This document shows, in pieces, positions 39,189 to 60,154 of a stretch of DNA of 64,000 bases; position 1 is the stretch's first letter; every line of letters starts with the position of its first letter. Made by a program: the position numbers and the translations under genes. Under the pieces are notes generated by a model. It did no database searches. It saw nothing but the letters and a program-made list of their open reading frames with translations, and had not been told where the DNA came from. The DNA is from Solobacterium sp. (GTDB taxonomy: Bacteria; Bacillota_I; Bacilli_A; Erysipelotrichales; Erysipelotrichaceae), in the NCBI GenBank assembly GCA_017512725.1, contig JAFWEW010000044.1, forward strand, positions 1-64,000, written 5' to 3'.

Positions 39189-40388
39189 ATGAAATATATA
39201 GAGAGACCAAAATATATGCAGCAGTTGCTTGACCTAATGGGCACGCCAGATATCAAGATTATCACCGGGGTACGCCGCTGTGGTAAGTCCGAGCTGATGA
39301 AGGCTTATATCCGAAGGATTAAAGAGACACAGCCTGCTTCCAATATCATCTTTGTGGATTTCTATGACCTGAAATACGAGGGCCTTAAGGAATACCATGC
39401 TCTTTATGATCATATTGAGAGTCACTATGACCCTGAGAAAGCAAACTATGTTTTCATTGACGAGGTGCAGCTTTGTGAGAAGTTTGAATTGGCAATCAAC
39501 AGCATGCATGCTTCTCGGAAATATGATCTGTATATCACTGGATCCAATGCTTTTTTACTGAGCTCCGACCTGACAACAATGTTTACAGGAAGATATATTG
39601 AGATTCATGTGTTCCCGTTCAGCTTTGCGGAATTCTGCCGGTATTATGAAGAAGAAAACGATATTCAAACGCTTTTTGAGGAATATATGATCAAAGGCGG
39701 ACTGGCAGGCTCCTATGAATACCGGACAGAACGGGATCGGCAAAACTATATTCGGGAAGTGTACGATACGATTATCAACCGTGATCTGGTTACAAAATAT
39801 AATCTGTCAGATACCACGACACTGGAGCATCTGGCTGAATTCATGATGGATAATGTATCAAACCTTACCTCTCCAAACAACATCAGTGATACACTGACAG
39901 CAAATGAAATTGTCACGAATCATAAAACGATAGGCAATTATATCAAATATCTTTGTGATGCTTATGTTTTCTATGGCGTCCGCAGATACGATATCCGTGG
40001 GAAGAAATACCTTAAAACCTCTGTGAAGTATTATCTTAGTGATACAGGTATTCGCTTTGCAAAGCTTGGCAGACGGAATCTTGATTATGGACGGATGTAT
40101 GAGAATATCGTCTGTATTGAACTAATGCGCCGCGGGTATGAAGTCTATGTTGGGAAGCTCTATCAGAAGGAAGTGGATTTTGTGGCTGTCCGGGGCAATG
40201 AGAAGATCTATATTCAGGTGAGTGACGATATTTCCAGATCGGATACCTTTGAGCGTGAGTATAGTCCGCTTTTAAAAATCAAAGACGCTTATCCGAAAAT
40301 GATTCTGGCTAATACAAAACATGAGACCTATGACTATGAGGGAATCAAAATCCACAATCTTCCAGATTGGCTGCTGCAACAAGAATGA
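39189..40388 (+). CDS. AAA ATPase with DUF4143 domain, copy 1
   Basis: A 399-residue AAA_14/DUF4143 protein. Walker A is GVRRCGKS (27-34), Walker B YVFIDEVQ (about 86-93), and sensor ITGSNAFLLSSDL follows. The C-terminal DUF4143 part includes YDIRGKKYLKTSVKYYLSDTGIR and a nuclease-like region, YVGKLYQKEVDFVAV, where E..D resembles PD-(D/E)XK folds. The family is widespread, often in several copies, and its role is poorly known; links to mobile elements and defence are suspected. It is 30-40 residues shorter than the two other copies here and diverged from them. Ribosome site GGAAGTGG is weak. Confidence 0.85.
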   Translation: MKYIERPKYMQQLLDLMGTPDIKIITGVRRCGKSELMKAYIRRIKETQPASNIIFVDFYDLKYEGLKEYHALYDHIESHYDPEKANYVFIDEVQLCEKFELAINSMHASRKYDLYITGSNAFLLSSDLTTMFTGRYIEIHVFPFSFAEFCRYYEEENDIQTLFEEYMIKGGLAGSYEYRTERDRQNYIREVYDTIINRDLVTKYNLSDTTTLEHLAEFMMDNVSNLTSPNNISDTLTANEIVTNHKTIGNYIKYLCDAYVFYGVRRYDIRGKKYLKTSVKYYLSDTGIRFAKLGRRNLDYGRMYENIVCIELMRRGYEVYVGKLYQKEVDFVAVRGNEKIYIQVSDDISRSDTFEREYSPLLKIKDAYPKMILANTKHETYDYEGIKIHNLPDWLLQQE

Positions 40389-40772: not shown

Positions 40773-42074
40773 TCACATATTAATTGCATTCTCATCAAGA
40801 AGGAACTGCTCAATCCCGATGTAAAGAATTCCATTGTCATCCTTCCATGGATTAATCCGATCTCCGACTACAACGATTTTTCGAAATGAATCCGGGACTT
40901 TTACTAAGGAATTAATCTCCTGTGCACGTTTTTCCGGGTCGCCAACGGATAAAGCAGATTGAATGTAGTAGCGCTGATTGCCGCGATTGACTACGAAATC
41001 AATCTCCAATTGTACCCGTGCGCTCTTTCCGTCTTCCTTCTTGTAATTGTACTCAACAACACCGACATCGACATCAAATCCCCGTCTCAGCAAGTCACAG
41101 TAGAGCACATTTTCCATAATATGAGTTTCTTCCTGCTGCCTGAACCCCAGTCTTGCATTCCGTAATCCGACATCCGTGAAATAGTATTTAGCTGGCGTTT
41201 TGATATACTTTTTCCCTTTAACATCATATCGTTCTGCCTTTGACAGCAGGAACGCTTCCAGAAAATAACCAAGATACTTGTCTATCGTTGCGGCTGAGAT
41301 TTTCAAATGCTTCTCACTGTCAAAGGTATTGGAGAGTTTGGTGGGGTTTGTTAAAGATCCAATCCCAGATGCGATGATATTCAGCAGATCTTCAAGTACT
41401 TCCGTATCATTTTGAATCGAATGTCTTTCGACGATGTCCTTCAAATAAGTCAGGGTGAATAAATCTCTAAGATACTGGCTCTTTTGCTCATGTGAAGAGA
41501 GTGACAGTGTGTATGGCATTCCTCCATAGGTGTAGTAATCAACCCATGCGTTATGCTTATCTCCTTGATACGCAGCATAGAATTCCGCATACGAAAGCGG
41601 ATAAACACGAATCTCATCCCCTCGATCCCTGAACTGTGTCAGAATATCCGAGGACAGCATTTTTGAATTACTTCCCGTCACATAAACATCCGCATTTTTG
41701 ATTTTCATGAGGCCGAGAATCACATCGATAAAACCGATTTTGGCCTGTGGGTCATCAACATAGGGATTTTGAATTTCAGACACAAACTGGATTTCATCGA
41801 TCAGAATGTAATATCTTTTATTCTTATCAGTGATTTTCTCCCGGATGTACTTGTCCAGTTCGAAAGGATTTCTGTACTTTGCGTTCGGCAATTCATCCAG
41901 CGCTATACGGATAATCTGTTCCTCTTCAACACCCAGGCTCTGAAGATATTTTGTGAAAAGCTCAAACAGCAGGTATGATTTTCCACAGCGGCGGATACCG
42001 GTTACAATTTTGATTCTCCCGTTATCCATCTTATCGATCAGCTTTTGAAGATACTCTTTTCTCTCCAGTTCCAT
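40773..42074 (-). CDS. AAA ATPase with DUF4143 domain, copy 2
   Basis: A 433-residue member of the same family. Walker A is GIRRCGKS (26-33), Walker B YYILIDEIQF, sensor VYVTGSNSKMLSSDI. The DUF4143 part holds YDVKGKKYIKTPAKYYFTDVGLRNARLGFRQ, then RRGFDVDVGVVEYNY and LEIDFVVNRGNQRYYIQ, the last resembling a nuclease core. It is closer to copy 3 (58.8 kb, also 433 residues) than to copy 1. Start ATG 42074 follows GAGGT. Its promoter sits between two matching palindromes, so tight self- or cross-regulation is likely (inference). Confidence 0.87.
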   Translation of the reverse strand: MELERKEYLQKLIDKMDNGRIKIVTGIRRCGKSYLLFELFTKYLQSLGVEEEQIIRIALDELPNAKYRNPFELDKYIREKITDKNKRYYILIDEIQFVSEIQNPYVDDPQAKIGFIDVILGLMKIKNADVYVTGSNSKMLSSDILTQFRDRGDEIRVYPLSYAEFYAAYQGDKHNAWVDYYTYGGMPYTLSLSSHEQKSQYLRDLFTLTYLKDIVERHSIQNDTEVLEDLLNIIASGIGSLTNPTKLSNTFDSEKHLKISAATIDKYLGYFLEAFLLSKAERYDVKGKKYIKTPAKYYFTDVGLRNARLGFRQQEETHIMENVLYCDLLRRGFDVDVGVVEYNYKKEDGKSARVQLEIDFVVNRGNQRYYIQSALSVGDPEKRAQEINSLVKVPDSFRKIVVVGDRINPWKDDNGILYIGIEQFLLDENAINM

Positions 42075-47250: not shown

Positions 47251-47280
47251 TTGTCAGATATGTTCCGAGTGGAATAGACT
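47251..47280 (+). promoter_or_regulatory. Promoter of the riboswitch-controlled adhesin
   Basis: -35 TTGTCA (47251-47256), 18-bp spacer, -10 TAGACT (47275-47280). The transcript would start near 47287, about 35 bases before the aptamer. Confidence 0.5.
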
Positions 47281-47320
47281 AAAAGATGCGAAAGGCAAAG
47301 TGGTTTTTTCTTTGCCGAAA

Positions 47321-47393
47321 TAATGATTTAGCAAAGCAGGTGAAAGCCTGTGACGCAAAGCTAAAGGGACCGGAAAGTCAGCCAGCTGCAAGT
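47321..47393 (+). ncRNA. c-di-GMP-I (GEMM-I) riboswitch aptamer
   Basis: The leader shows the conserved GEMM-I pieces in order: AGCAAAGC at the junction, a P2 stem AGGT/GCCT closed by a GAAA tetraloop (47338-47349), GACGCAAAGCTAAAGGG, and AGCCAGCTGC as the 3' strand of P3/P1. These match the class I cyclic-di-GMP aptamer consensus. It lies in the leader of the 1623-residue surface protein, and an intrinsic terminator follows. This implies c-di-GMP control of transcription read-through. The direction (ON or OFF) cannot be fixed by eye. Confidence 0.88.
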
Positions 47394-47407
47394 ATATAAC
47401 ACCAGTA

Positions 47408-47451
47408 AAAGGCGCACTTTCTGTATCCATATAGAGAAGTGCGTCTTTTTG
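47408..47451 (+). terminator. Expression-platform terminator of the riboswitch
   Basis: Stem AAAGGCGCACTT (47408-47419) and AAGTGCGTCTTT (47437-47448), then TT. It lies between the aptamer and the ribosome site AGAAGGAGAG. Confidence 0.75.
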
Positions 47452-47470
47452 TGAGAAGGAGAGACATGTT

Positions 47471-50400
47471 ATGAAGAACAGCAGGTTGTTCAAGGTGTTC
47501 GTATCACTGTTTATGGTAGTGGGGATGCTTTTTAGTGCGGACGGTGTAAAGGCAGAAGAAGCTCCAGTTAACTGGACTGCTAATATGCCTGAAGCAACTA
47601 TAAATCCTATAGAAGGTGGCACAGTAACAGCTGGGATTGTTAATGAAGGAAATAAGTACCAGTATGAAGCTAACCCAGCTGAAGGATACAGTTTTAAAAA
47701 ATGGAACTATAAAACTTCAGAAAGTGATGAGGAACGTGCTTTAACTGATAATCCTATTCAGTTTGATAGTAGTATATATTCCATTCAAGCGATTTTCAGT
47801 GCGAATAATAATGATGAAGAAAATCCTGCTAACTTAAGATCGGATACATGGACTTTAGATGTTTCTACGGTTGAAAAGACTATCACAATAACAGCACCGA
47901 CAAATAACCCATTTAAACAAGGAGATGAATATAAATTAGGTTTCTATCATACAGAGAATGGGCAACAATTTGGACAAATTTATATTGGAACACTTAATGA
48001 TACTGAATTATTAAATAATACAATAACGCTGAATTCTGATCGAATCGGATATACCACAGGATGTTCAGATTCAGATATTATCAAGCTACAGAAAAAAACA
48101 GGTGTCGATGACTATGGTGATGTTTATGGTGATGTTACTACTTTCACTGGTAAAGCAATTTTTGAGAATAACGTTTTTAGAAATATTGGAAGTGTAACGC
48201 AGGTCGGGAGTAATCTTGTGTTCACTGGAATTACTTACAGCGATAAGACTCTTGATCCAAGTACTGAAAATTATTATAATGCGGGGATTATTATTGATGA
48301 TAATCCAAATCATACCCTTTATTGCTCTAAACAAACAAAGGCGCAGACAACTGACACTATTACACTCCCATTCCTTACACTTCCATTATCTGAATTTTAT
48401 GGACCGGCTATAATCCCAGGTGATTATACTGTTTACCTAGAAGCATTAAACTCAAGATTTTATTTTGAAAATGTTGATATTGATAAAAGCTCATCAGTAA
48501 ACGGTAGTATATCGACAAATGATGGGGGTTCCAACTTTACTATTACTATGAGTAAAGATTTTAGCAATATAGAAAATCAACAAAGTTACGATCTTACTTT
48601 AGTGAGTTCAACAACCCCATCAAATAAGTATGTACTACACCTTAATGATAACAGTAAACCATTTGAAGAAGTTAAAAATACTGATCAAGTAATTACGTCA
48701 TATGTACGCACTTTTAGTAATAATGAATTTAGTGTTTCACCGACAGATGAACTTCCTGAAGGTGATTACAAAGTATACATGACTGTGAACGGACCGACTG
48801 GATCTGTTATTTATAACTTAAGCAAGAGTGGGACAATCCACTTCAAAGAAAAAAAGAACTCTGGCGGAGGCGGCGGAGGCGGCGATGACGGTTCAAGTAT
48901 ACCTGACGCCCCACAAAAAGGCCCAAAATTAACAGTCACTTTATCTGACAGTAATCAAGACAATGTCAGTGATACACTTACTGTAACTGCAGATGGAGAT
49001 CAGCCGTTCTTTACGCCAGGCATGGGACAGAATTATAAGCTTAGTCTGACACAAAGCAGTAAAGACCCTAGAGGATACTATGTCAGTATTTCTGGTTATA
49101 TAGGTACATCAGAAACGAATGAACTTAATGTTCCGCTTGCAGATTTAGGATATTATCCAGCAGGAAGCTATTATGTTTATTTTGTTAATCCTGGGGATAG
49201 AGGAGCAGTCAATTCGTATTTTGCAGTTTCAAATAGTGTTACCTTTTCAACTGATATTAATAAGTCGGATATAACAATCGGAACCGTAACATTATCAAGC
49301 GACAAAACAAAAGTTTTAATAACGCTTCCTGATTCGATTCAGATAAATTCTGAAGATAAAAATACGTTAATTCTGACACGCGGAAAATCCATGATCAGAG
49401 TTGGCGGATTACAATTGACCGTTGAAGGTTCAAACACAGGCACGAAGACATATTCTGTATCAACTAACGATCTCAGAAATCATTGTAGTTGGCCGATCGA
49501 TGCTGAATATGAAGTCACTTTTATCCACAGCAATGAATCAACGGGCTACAAACTTTCGGGAAGTGTAAATTATACAAATACGATACCGGTGTTTGGAACA
49601 ATTTACACAGCCGATGAAACTAAGAAAGTATTTGCAGTAAGGAAAACAAATGATGGTGTTGATTTTCCGGCTGGCGGAGTTAAATTCTTTGTTACAAAAT
49701 ACGACAAAGACAACCCGAATAGTTATGCTGGTGAAATGATCAGTCCATTTTGGTGTGCAATGCACCAAAATGTTGAAGATGCAGACACGATGCTTATATA
49801 TGTCGATGAAGATACTTTCCCGAAACAAGCTTCAGGTTTCGTAAAGGAAATCTATTTTGCCCATAATATTGGCGGAAGTATTTATAAGCTTGTCATAAGT
49901 GGGGAAAAAATTGAAATTGGACAAAAAACGCAGCTAAGAAAAGGTGTATGTACTATTCAGCCAGGATCACATATCGACGAGAATTTAAAGCTTTCTATGT
50001 CATGTGTTACGGATGATGGTAAAAATATCATTTCTGATTTTCCTGATTCATCACTATATTTATTTCTTCCGGAAGGTACAAATCAAACTTCAAATATGAT
50101 TACGTTCTTCCTTGGCCACAAAAAAGACGACACTATTGAGTTCTATCAAAGTGATATTCAAAATCAAAATAAGCTAGTAACCCCTGGAACATATGATAAT
50201 GTTAAGTTCTGGGTCAAGCTTATTGGTGAAATGTCACTTGATTTCTTCCAAGGTACTGTTGTGAACTCAAACGGAGGGAATGAAATTGTTGTTGGTAACG
50301 TACTGAAGCAAGCACCTAGCAAATTGACGTTTGATAACTCATACACATATGAATACACAGATGATAATAATATTAATCATAGTATTCCGGGCGTATTATT

Positions 50401-52342
50401 AAAACCTAATAATACTAATATAGATAAAACTGAATTTTTAAAATATATAAATAATTATCATGACAATGAAGGTCCAACACAAGATTCTATTTATTCTCAG
50501 ATGAAGTTTTTTAGAGAAGATGGAACTTCAGAGCATGGAAAGAATTTCCTTTCGTTATGTGATGCTGGAGGCGCTGATTCTCATCATACCGTTGTAATTG
50601 ATAATGGTACTGATCTGGGTTTGTTTATAAGTGCAGAGGATTTAAAACGAATTGGAATTCAGAAAAATACACCATATCGTGTAGATGTTAGTGTATGCGG
50701 CTATGAATGCGTGACCCTTTCAAATGATGACAGATTGAATATATCTAATGGTGTGACTACTATTAATGGATTATCTGACTTCGAGCTTTCCTTTACACAG
50801 GATAAAGATACAGAAGATTCAGATGTAATTTTTAAGGTTGGTTCAAATTTAACGCCACAGCAAAAAATTAATTACTTCAAATCCATAACCAGCTTAACTA
50901 TTACTAGTGGTAATGGTGGAACTACTTATTTTGATGAAGTAAAAGAAAATGATAAGACTGCTGATGCGTACATTATCACTCCTGAAAATAGTAATGATCC
51001 GGAGCTTCATATAAAATCCAATGTTATTGTAGGTACTCCAAATGCGTATGCTTATATGAATGTGACATCAAATGAATATGTCAGACAGTATGTTACCGGA
51101 AAACTATACTATTGTAAGAGGTTTCAGCCAAGTGACCTTACAACAAAGGTTCAAACAGATGGTATTCATATTTACTCAAAGAAAATCGAATACCTTGAAA
51201 ATTTGGAAAATGTTCGGATGCGAATCAACCGAGTGGGAGCGTCAACGGCTAAAGATTTCGAACTTAAGGATTATGTAAAGAGATCTACTATTAATAATAA
51301 TGAAAGAGTGATTGCTCTAACATTGAATGATTTACTAACGATAAATAATGGGAATGTGGATATTGATAGCCCTTATTGGTCATATATCGATTCTGAGAAT
51401 TATGTATCATGGTGGAACCATAACTCTCTCAGTATGAACCCAATTCGTTTTGCGGCTGGAGTAAATACAGCTCATAGCACGACAACTCCAGAAAACCTGG
51501 ATGAATTAGATGACTTGGCGAAGAATTTGGAAAACGGCTATGTAGTCAGATCCGATAATATGACAGACCCTACAAATCAAGGCGTCAGTATTGACGGTGC
51601 TATTGCCGGCGCGATTGCTTCGAATAACGAGAACAGAGAACCTGATTATTCGGATATTAACAGCTGCGCTGGTGAAGTATTGGTCACTAGAACGGTTAGT
51701 GCACTGGATAATACTACAGAAGAAAATATCATAGGGCATTCCGGACTCACTAATGTAAATGGAGTAGGCATCAAGTTCGGAATCAAAATTATGAGAGATG
51801 CTGACGAAATCTATCAGTTGCCATTTAATGCAGCCCTCAGATTTGATCTTCCTGATAATTTAGACGTTAAGGATGGACAGGTACTTTATTTGATTTCACA
51901 ACATAAAGTTGGAAACACAGTTACATACCCGAGATATACAGTTTTTGTCAAAGAGGATACGAATACCCAAAAACGTTATGGCGTAGCTTATGTCGATCAG
52001 TATTCTGACTTCGTACTTGTTACAGCTGATGAAGCCAAAGATGATCCAAAGCCTTCTAATACATCAAAGAAGTCTTCTACAACCACAAATACCAGCAATG
52101 TCGTCACCTGCCAGATGGCTGGTTATCCTGCAAACTACGCATGGAACGAAGCTGCTAAGGCATGCCAGCCGGGATACATCAATGATAACGGTGTATTCGT
52201 AAGTACTGCCGGTACAACAACCGGTAACCGGGTTAAGGCAGTTAATACCTGGGATAATGGACTGAGAGGTTCGATTACAGCACTGATTGCTTCGACAATA
52301 GCTACGGTCTTTGCGGCATACGCATTAAGAAAGTGGAGTTAA
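47471..52342 (+). CDS. c-di-GMP-controlled large surface protein (1623 aa)
   Basis: A 1623-residue secreted protein. The signal peptide ends GVKA (residue 28). Residues 35-118 resemble a bacterial InlB/Flg_new-type repeat (GGTVTAGIVNEGNKYQYEANPAEGYSFKKW). A Gly-rich linker lies near residue 466, separating beta-rich repeats with recurring GDYTVYLEALN and GSYYVYFVNPG patterns. Near the C-terminus comes a Thr/Ser linker, a CQMAGYPANYAWNEAAKACQPGY motif, AVNTWDN, a hydrophobic helix (ALIASTIATVFAAYAL) and RKWS. This looks like a divergent sortase-type anchor without LPxTG. The gene is more AT-rich than its neighbours. An out-of-frame ATG-TTA-TGA overlaps the start, so initiation may be coupled. 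Confidence 0.85.
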   Translation: MKNSRLFKVFVSLFMVVGMLFSADGVKAEEAPVNWTANMPEATINPIEGGTVTAGIVNEGNKYQYEANPAEGYSFKKWNYKTSESDEERALTDNPIQFDSSIYSIQAIFSANNNDEENPANLRSDTWTLDVSTVEKTITITAPTNNPFKQGDEYKLGFYHTENGQQFGQIYIGTLNDTELLNNTITLNSDRIGYTTGCSDSDIIKLQKKTGVDDYGDVYGDVTTFTGKAIFENNVFRNIGSVTQVGSNLVFTGITYSDKTLDPSTENYYNAGIIIDDNPNHTLYCSKQTKAQTTDTITLPFLTLPLSEFYGPAIIPGDYTVYLEALNSRFYFENVDIDKSSSVNGSISTNDGGSNFTITMSKDFSNIENQQSYDLTLVSSTTPSNKYVLHLNDNSKPFEEVKNTDQVITSYVRTFSNNEFSVSPTDELPEGDYKVYMTVNGPTGSVIYNLSKSGTIHFKEKKNSGGGGGGGDDGSSIPDAPQKGPKLTVTLSDSNQDNVSDTLTVTADGDQPFFTPGMGQNYKLSLTQSSKDPRGYYVSISGYIGTSETNELNVPLADLGYYPAGSYYVYFVNPGDRGAVNSYFAVSNSVTFSTDINKSDITIGTVTLSSDKTKVLITLPDSIQINSEDKNTLILTRGKSMIRVGGLQLTVEGSNTGTKTYSVSTNDLRNHCSWPIDAEYEVTFIHSNESTGYKLSGSVNYTNTIPVFGTIYTADETKKVFAVRKTNDGVDFPAGGVKFFVTKYDKDNPNSYAGEMISPFWCAMHQNVEDADTMLIYVDEDTFPKQASGFVKEIYFAHNIGGSIYKLVISGEKIEIGQKTQLRKGVCTIQPGSHIDENLKLSMSCVTDDGKNIISDFPDSSLYLFLPEGTNQTSNMITFFLGHKKDDTIEFYQSDIQNQNKLVTPGTYDNVKFWVKLIGEMSLDFFQGTVVNSNGGNEIVVGNVLKQAPSKLTFDNSYTYEYTDDNNINHSIPGVLLKPNNTNIDKTEFLKYINNYHDNEGPTQDSIYSQMKFFREDGTSEHGKNFLSLCDAGGADSHHTVVIDNGTDLGLFISAEDLKRIGIQKNTPYRVDVSVCGYECVTLSNDDRLNISNGVTTINGLSDFELSFTQDKDTEDSDVIFKVGSNLTPQQKINYFKSITSLTITSGNGGTTYFDEVKENDKTADAYIITPENSNDPELHIKSNVIVGTPNAYAYMNVTSNEYVRQYVTGKLYYCKRFQPSDLTTKVQTDGIHIYSKKIEYLENLENVRMRINRVGASTAKDFELKDYVKRSTINNNERVIALTLNDLLTINNGNVDIDSPYWSYIDSENYVSWWNHNSLSMNPIRFAAGVNTAHSTTTPENLDELDDLAKNLENGYVVRSDNMTDPTNQGVSIDGAIAGAIASNNENREPDYSDINSCAGEVLVTRTVSALDNTTEENIIGHSGLTNVNGVGIKFGIKIMRDADEIYQLPFNAALRFDLPDNLDVKDGQVLYLISQHKVGNTVTYPRYTVFVKEDTNTQKRYGVAYVDQYSDFVLVTADEAKDDPKPSNTSKKSSTTTNTSNVVTCQMAGYPANYAWNEAAKACQPGYINDNGVFVSTAGTTTGNRVKAVNTWDNGLRGSITALIASTIATVFAAYALRKWS

Positions 52343-58786: not shown

Positions 58787-60088
58787 TCAGACAATCGTTG
58801 TATCCAACAGAAAATCTAAGACTCCTATATTGAGAATGCCGTTGTCGTCATACCAACGTTTACGTATATCGTGACGGACGATGATTTTTGGGAAAGAATC
58901 TCCGGTAAGTGAAAAGGGTCTGTTCTCTGTTCTGGCTTTTTCATCCGTTGCCAGAGAAAAAGCTGATTGAATATATGTTTTTCTTCCACCATGCTTTGCG
59001 ATAAAATCGATTTCTCTTGCTGCCTGAACATTATTCCCGGATTTATTCTTCTCGGTACTGTACACGATGCCAACATCCACTTCACATCCGCGAATTCGAA
59101 GGTCATTGTAAATGATATTTTCCATGATGTGGGTCATTTCCTGTTGTCTGAAGCCGATTCTTACATTGCGAAGTCCAAGATCTTCACAGTAATACTTATT
59201 TGGGTAATTAAAGTATTCCTTCCCCTTCACATCATACCGGCGGCATTCTTCAAACAGATACGCATCAATCAAATAATCAATATAGTTTTTCACCGTATTA
59301 TTTGAAACGACATCTTCTCCGGATAGTTTCTGTTTCGAATTAATTGAATTTGCCACGTTGGTCGGGTTTGTTAATGAACCAACGGAAGAACAAAAAAAAT
59401 TAACGATTGCTGACAATACATCTTCTCGTTTGATTTTTTTTCGTTCTACAATATCTTTCAGATATACTTCAGAGAATAATGACTTCAGATATCTCATTTT
59501 CTCTGTTTCATCAGGCCTGGAAAGAACCAGAGGCATTCCTCCGTAAAACGCATAGTCATCGAATGCTTCCTGTTCATCGCCTCCGACGGCACCATAGTAT
59601 TCAGAGAAGCTCAGCGGGTGAACGCGAATTTCATCACTTCTTCCGCGAAACTCTGTAAGAATATCAGTTGAAAGCATTTTTGAATTACTTCCGGTAACGA
59701 AAATATCGAGATTCCGGAGTGATTTGAGGTCGTTGAGCGCATCATAAAAAGTAATCTTCTTTCCTTCAGGGTTATATGGATTGGCTATTTCATCTGACAT
59801 CTGTATTTCATCGACAAAGAGATAATACTGATCCGATTTCCCTTCAACTTTTTCTCGTACGCTCTCTGCGAGCACGAGAGGGTTTCTGTATTTAATATCT
59901 CTGGCAAGATCCAGTTCATAATTCAGGATATGATCTTCCTTTATCCCCTGATTGATTAAATATGTCCTGAAAATTGTATTAAGCAAATAGGACTTCCCGC
60001 ACCTTCTTATGCCGGTAATAACCTTAACCTGTCCATCCCACATAAAAGAGATAATGCGGTTCAGATAAAGCTCCCGATTAATATGCAT
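58787..60088 (-). CDS. AAA ATPase with DUF4143 domain, copy 3
   Basis: A 433-residue member of the DUF4143 family, same length and plan as copy 2. Walker A is GIRRCGKS (26-33), Walker B YLFVDEIQM, sensor IFVTGSNSKMLSTDI; the DUF4143 block is YDVKGKEYFNYPNKYYCEDLGLRNVRIGFRQ, with RRYDVK upstream and a nuclease-like REIDFIAKHGGRKTYIQ near the end. ATG 60088 is chosen because GGAGG lies eight bases before it; an in-frame ATG 60 bp upstream would include that site. Its promoter region has a different dyad (ATAAGT-ATTC-ACTTAT) from copy 2. Confidence 0.87.
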   Translation of the reverse strand: MHINRELYLNRIISFMWDGQVKVITGIRRCGKSYLLNTIFRTYLINQGIKEDHILNYELDLARDIKYRNPLVLAESVREKVEGKSDQYYLFVDEIQMSDEIANPYNPEGKKITFYDALNDLKSLRNLDIFVTGSNSKMLSTDILTEFRGRSDEIRVHPLSFSEYYGAVGGDEQEAFDDYAFYGGMPLVLSRPDETEKMRYLKSLFSEVYLKDIVERKKIKREDVLSAIVNFFCSSVGSLTNPTNVANSINSKQKLSGEDVVSNNTVKNYIDYLIDAYLFEECRRYDVKGKEYFNYPNKYYCEDLGLRNVRIGFRQQEMTHIMENIIYNDLRIRGCEVDVGIVYSTEKNKSGNNVQAAREIDFIAKHGGRKTYIQSAFSLATDEKARTENRPFSLTGDSFPKIIVRHDIRKRWYDDNGILNIGVLDFLLDTTIV

Positions 60089-60138
60089 AAATACCTCCAT
60101 TGAAAACTTCGCTAGTATATAAGCCAAGTTATCAATAT

Positions 60139-60154
60139 AAGTATTCACTTATTC
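60139..60154. promoter_or_regulatory. Dyad upstream of DUF4143 copy 3
   Basis: ATAAGT-ATTC-ACTTAT, symmetric, in the divergent region between copy 3 and the ABC transporter gene. Operator role is inference. Confidence 0.35.

Follow-up and report, generated by a model that had tools for sequence, protein, structure and literature searches.

The window analysed here, a 64,000-nucleotide stretch of a Solobacterium sp. contig, contains on its plus strand a c-di-GMP-I (GEMM-I) aptamer (47320–47393), an intrinsic terminator (47407–47450), the ribosome binding site AAGGAG (47456–47461) and an open reading frame encoding an exported surface-type protein of 1623 amino acids (47471–52342; ATG at 47471, stop at 52342). 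The initial annotation had named an aptamer, a terminator and a ribosome binding site in this order, and all were recovered. In the covariance-model search with the GEMM-I profile, which had been proposed as a check, the aptamer matched the full-length Rfam model RF01051 with 49.8 bits and an E value of 9.8e-7, well above the gathering score of 35 bits. GEMM-I is the sole Rfam family above threshold in the window, and the 2.72-Mb assembly holds this single copy. P2 (GCAGGU-GAAA-GCCUGU, 47336–47351) has the GNRA-type GAAA loop expected of the class, P3 spans 47359–47387 and the conserved P3 core GACGCAAAGC is present at 47352–47361. Judged by its sequence, the element is a genuine and conserved c-di-GMP-I riboswitch, ordinary in kind.

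The terminator is an inverted repeat with a stem at 47407–47449, a U-tract at 47446–47450 and a hairpin energy of about −21 kcal/mol. It is kept in a congeneric genome (G201, locus L089), in which the same riboswitch lies beside the same macro-domain and DHH genes; a generic scan for terminators missed it. Upstream of the aptamer, a candidate promoter (TTGTCA – 18 nt – TAGACT, 47251–47280, plus strand) matches the consensus and has both hexamers kept in G201, although the region has no excess of promoter-like matches over chance; its first base is the start of the region delimited in the initial annotation. A predicted leader hairpin (GGCAAAG/CUUUGCC, 47294–47316, plus strand) follows 5' of the aptamer, and G201 keeps both of its arms while loop and flanks differ. 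The 3' arm CUUUGCC could alternatively pair with GCAAAG of the aptamer. Elsewhere in the window, three similar large open reading frames lie within 21 kb (39189–40388, 40773–42074 and 58787–60148), each with the motif TG[VI]RRCGKS; by eye, they are probably ATPases of the AAA/DUF4143 type.

The predicted surface protein and its anchor

The protein begins with a signal-peptide-like N-terminus and one divergent InlB B-repeat (residues 42–112; Pfam PF18998, E 2.4e-6), from which a long middle part leads to a C-terminal region (52109–52339, plus strand) that opens with a Cys-containing module (TCQMAGYP..YAWNEAAKACQPGY). The module reads TCQMAGYPxxYAWNEAAKACQPGY and is followed by VKAVNTWDNG, a hydrophobic segment (residues 1601–1619) and the tail RKWS. 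The same module occurs in a paralogue of 1590 amino acids, which is encoded near a GGDEF gene on contig C13, and, across the genus, in further large proteins encoded by 12 of 70 genomes. The tails of the latter, such as VPKTADEG, SPRTSDEG and AVNTYDEG, look, by sequence, like divergent sorting signals. Like LPXTG-anchored proteins, the window protein combines a signal-peptide-like start with a C-terminal hydrophobic segment and a basic tail, and the genome encodes three sortases; unlike them, it has VKAVNTWDNG, with NTWDNG where LPXTG is expected, behind the module common to large proteins of the genus. The sequence supports the earlier description of a large secreted protein with a divergent anchor; its length is 1,623 codons and not the "1.6-kb-codon" of the original wording.

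The parallel to collagen adhesins drawn in the same annotation could not be upheld. In Pfam, the single InlB B-repeat was the only match, and no collagen-binding, CnaB-type or other adhesin domain was found; searches of NCBIfam and PDB with the protein gave no match, and named genomes contained no close relatives. An AlphaFold model of residues 119–480, computed without relatives, reached a pLDDT of 35. The protein may plausibly have a role in adhesion. Control of large anchored surface proteins by c-di-GMP-sensing RNA is known from C. difficile, where riboswitches precede the sortase-dependent proteins CD2831 and CD3246; these, however, belong to class II and have ON logic (PMC6366702).

Expression platform and direction of control

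The terminator begins about 18 nt 3' of the position equivalent to C92 of Vc2 and does not overlap the aptamer core. Minimum-energy folds of the growing transcript gave the aptamer up to position 47421, an antiterminator at 47424–47440 and the terminator from 47444 onwards; free-energy folding of this kind leaves out kinetics and ligand. The antiterminator (47367–47428, plus strand) is a long fold that consumes P3 together with the first (5') arm of the terminator and is formed by the pairings 47367–47369/47426–47428, 47371–47378/47416–47423, 47381–47383/47411–47413 and 47385–47388/47403–47406. Its duplex energy of −20.0 kcal/mol compares with −11.2 ± 2.9 kcal/mol in 2000 dinucleotide shuffles, of which a fraction of 0.0065 was as good. 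When scored against the whole aptamer, the pairing was less exceptional, with a shuffle fraction of 0.10. The same duplex in G201 has −21.5 kcal/mol (shuffle fraction 0.005); since G201 is close to the window genome, the pairing is kept there but without covariation.

Within the genus, the terminator is separate from the aptamer in 8 of the 10 aptamers with a detected terminator. A general rule of P3-based antitermination was nevertheless rejected for the genus, because the sites of G172, G222 and G231 have no such complementarity although their terminators are separate too. The prediction of OFF control therefore rests on the window and G201 and, weakly, on G218.

A terminator separate from the aptamer, combined with an antiterminator made from P3, predicts that the ligand turns the gene OFF. 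The initial annotation had left the direction of control open; from anatomy and folds it can now be predicted. The arrangement resembles Cd1 (Cdi-1-3) of the C. difficile flgB operon, a class I switch with separate terminator and OFF logic (PMC9262584, PMC6366702), and C. difficile has seven functional class I switches, all of them OFF (PMC6366702). As computed here, the window has the features of a Cd1-like OFF switch, namely a GEMM-I aptamer, a separate 3' terminator and an antiterminator that competes with the aptamer and excludes it. It differs from Cd1 by an A in place of G20, by a surface protein instead of flagella as target and by the use of P3 in the antiterminator. At low c-di-GMP, P3 of the nascent RNA would re-pair with the 5' arm of the terminator, and RNA polymerase would enter the gene. 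At high c-di-GMP, the bound aptamer would keep P3, the terminator would form and the gene would be switched off.

The opposite sign, in which c-di-GMP turns the gene ON and the bound aptamer favours read-through via another pairing, is unlikely, but it has a precedent. Bc2, in front of cap in B. thuringiensis, is a class I ON switch of a surface protein and likewise has A in place of G20 (PMC4933901), and many other family genera have GEMM-I aptamers whose 3' strand overlaps the terminator, which is the ON layout. Against this reading, the window terminator has no base in common with the aptamer core, and the sole strong alternative pairing breaks P3 and thereby frees the gene without ligand. 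Bc2 shares with the window its class, the A at the Gα contact, an intrinsic terminator and a surface target; it differs in its ON logic, and Cap is a collagen adhesion protein, whereas the window protein has no such domain. The comparison with collagen adhesins thus fails in a second respect, as the anatomy here predicts the opposite sign. We therefore retain OFF control as the predicted direction.

The A20 pocket and the ligand

The position equivalent to G20 of Vc2, which contacts Gα of the ligand and is G in the consensus, is A47330 in the window aptamer (plus strand; Rfam alignment and aptamer comparison). The predicted Watson-Crick contact to Gβ is kept in the Rfam alignment as C47389 (plus strand), equivalent to C92 of Vc2 by a mapping inferred from PMC6274999. 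A20 is found in 10 of 15 genus aptamers, a count that includes the second G222 site, and in 1 of the 51 aptamers sampled from the rest of the family. The initial annotation had missed this substitution at the Gα contact, which made it necessary to question the identity of the ligand. Class membership would be left intact by the missing G20, in analogy to Bc2, as the position is variable and Bc2 responds to c-di-GMP with an A.

An aptamer of this type might sense cGAMP, or respond to it and to c-di-GMP to a similar degree, as in GEMM-Ib of Geobacter. The cGAMP riboswitch likewise carries A here, and cGAMP is bound by the class I switch once it is mutated to G20A (PMC6274999); the enrichment of A20 in the genus points in the same direction. 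GEMM-Ib and the window aptamer have the same fold and the A at the Gα/Aα contact position, but the pilM switch has the ON layout (PMC9262584), and Geobacter possesses Hypr GGDEF enzymes, cGAMP synthases with Ser where canonical GGDEF domains have Asp (PMC6456294). None of the 48 GGDEF matches in the window genome is of this Ser type. One domain (C44:11430–11891; genome G000, locus L114) has an intact GGDEF motif, but its specificity Asp is replaced by Asn (GHDRGN). In two A20 relatives, the readable domains all have Asp, namely 8 of 8 in G172 and 9 of 11 in G222, the remaining two being unreadable by motif. A SMODS cyclase was not found either, so that neither of the two cGAMP synthase types searched, Ser-type GGDEF and SMODS, occurs in the assembly, which is 97% complete. 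Furthermore, the A20 aptamers of G223, G195 and G105 sit 5' of genes for canonical-Asp diguanylate cyclases (read by eye), the cyclase of G105 being fused to an HD-GYP-like domain. Bc2 RNA, with its A, is responsive to c-di-GMP, whereas c-di-AMP, GTP and cGMP have no effect; cGAMP is not named among these controls (PMC4933901). We consider recognition of cGAMP by the window aptamer, alone or alongside c-di-GMP, to be quite unlikely. Due to the lack of a cGAMP synthase among the types searched, the position of A20 aptamers before canonical GGDEF genes and the response of Bc2, c-di-GMP is the likely ligand, as judged from sequence and by analogy.

Conservation, family context and meaning

In G201, identity to the window amounts to 94.6% in the aptamer and 94.7% in linker and terminator. 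Promoter and leader reach 84%, the intergenic spacer 68.7% and codons 1–40 of the open reading frame 75.8%; the macro-domain and DHH genes are 97–98% identical. Conservation of aptamer and terminator above that of the flanking DNA suggests that the RNA element is more than a product of chance. By the neighbouring TelA gene, the nearest named relatives are Solobacterium sp. and Erysipelotrichaceae MAGs, mostly of ruminant guts. The 9 kb of L133, the closest named record by this neighbour, contain no GEMM-I, which makes the locus patchy. Synteny with the downstream gene was seen in one record only, in which the riboswitch is absent. That the aptamer is a decayed relic whose switching has been lost, with a terminator that merely attenuates the gene, is very unlikely: its P1 is weak, its P3 is short, its score lies below that of most family members (typically 55–84 bits), and several of the class II/I switches annotated in C. 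difficile do not function (PMC6366702), but no other intergenic part is as well conserved in G201 as aptamer and terminator, and P3 carries a compensated change relative to family members, a G-C/C-G pair turned into A-U (GCC/GGC to GAC/GUC).

We therefore regard it as probable that a transcriptional GEMM-I riboswitch with a G20-to-A pocket and c-di-GMP-OFF logic controls one large, probably sortase-anchored surface protein.

The c-di-GMP enzymes on which the initial annotation had made its interpretation depend are present in the genome, with 48 GGDEF and 22 EAL matches. No PilZ domain exceeded the curated cut-off in the same genome; the searches for GEMM-I and PilZ identified a single dedicated c-di-GMP receptor, the riboswitch before the surface protein gene. 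A search for c-di-GMP-II riboswitches gave no match, but neither did its control. The enzyme set is unusually large for so few recognizable receptors.

GEMM-I sites elsewhere in the family mostly lie 5' of genes for secreted or surface proteins. In other genera, the aptamer 3' strand of the switches L081, L056, L058, L057, L084 and L079 forms the first arm of the terminator; these switches precede large surface proteins, some with LPXTG-like ends, and their ON layout implies a sign of control opposite to that in the genus of the window. Other family genera have tandem (L060, L065, L067, L068, L083, L069, L066) or single sites (L061, L062, L072), often with two or three aptamers in series before CAP-domain-like secreted proteins. 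Aptamers of this group are closed by GAACA...UGUUC with a U-tract immediately after, which looks as though P1 doubled as the terminator stem, with no separate expression platform. At L090, L091, L073, L080 and L071, a GEMM-I lies directly 5' of GGDEF, GGDEF/HD-GYP-like or EAL genes, where feedback on c-di-GMP metabolism is possible; riboswitch feedback of this kind has been described as rare (PMC6366702).

The A20 substitution, common in the genus and rare outside, merits a binding test, and its enrichment in one genus offers a natural test set for ligand choice by the GEMM-I pocket. We consider it improbable that the A20 aptamers prevalent in the genus form a lineage-specific ligand variant of GEMM-I, for cGAMP, for both dinucleotides or for another mixed dinucleotide. 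If they did, c-di-GMP would not be the sole dinucleotide by which surface proteins are regulated in Gram-positive gut bacteria.

With 48 GGDEF and 22 EAL matches, no PilZ domain above the cut-off and a single GEMM-I, the surface protein gene is the one clearly recognizable c-di-GMP output found here. As a usual rule, c-di-GMP promotes attachment. If the predicted OFF logic is true, the surface protein would be made when c-di-GMP is low, which would run against this rule, and the sign of control would have flipped between genera of one family.
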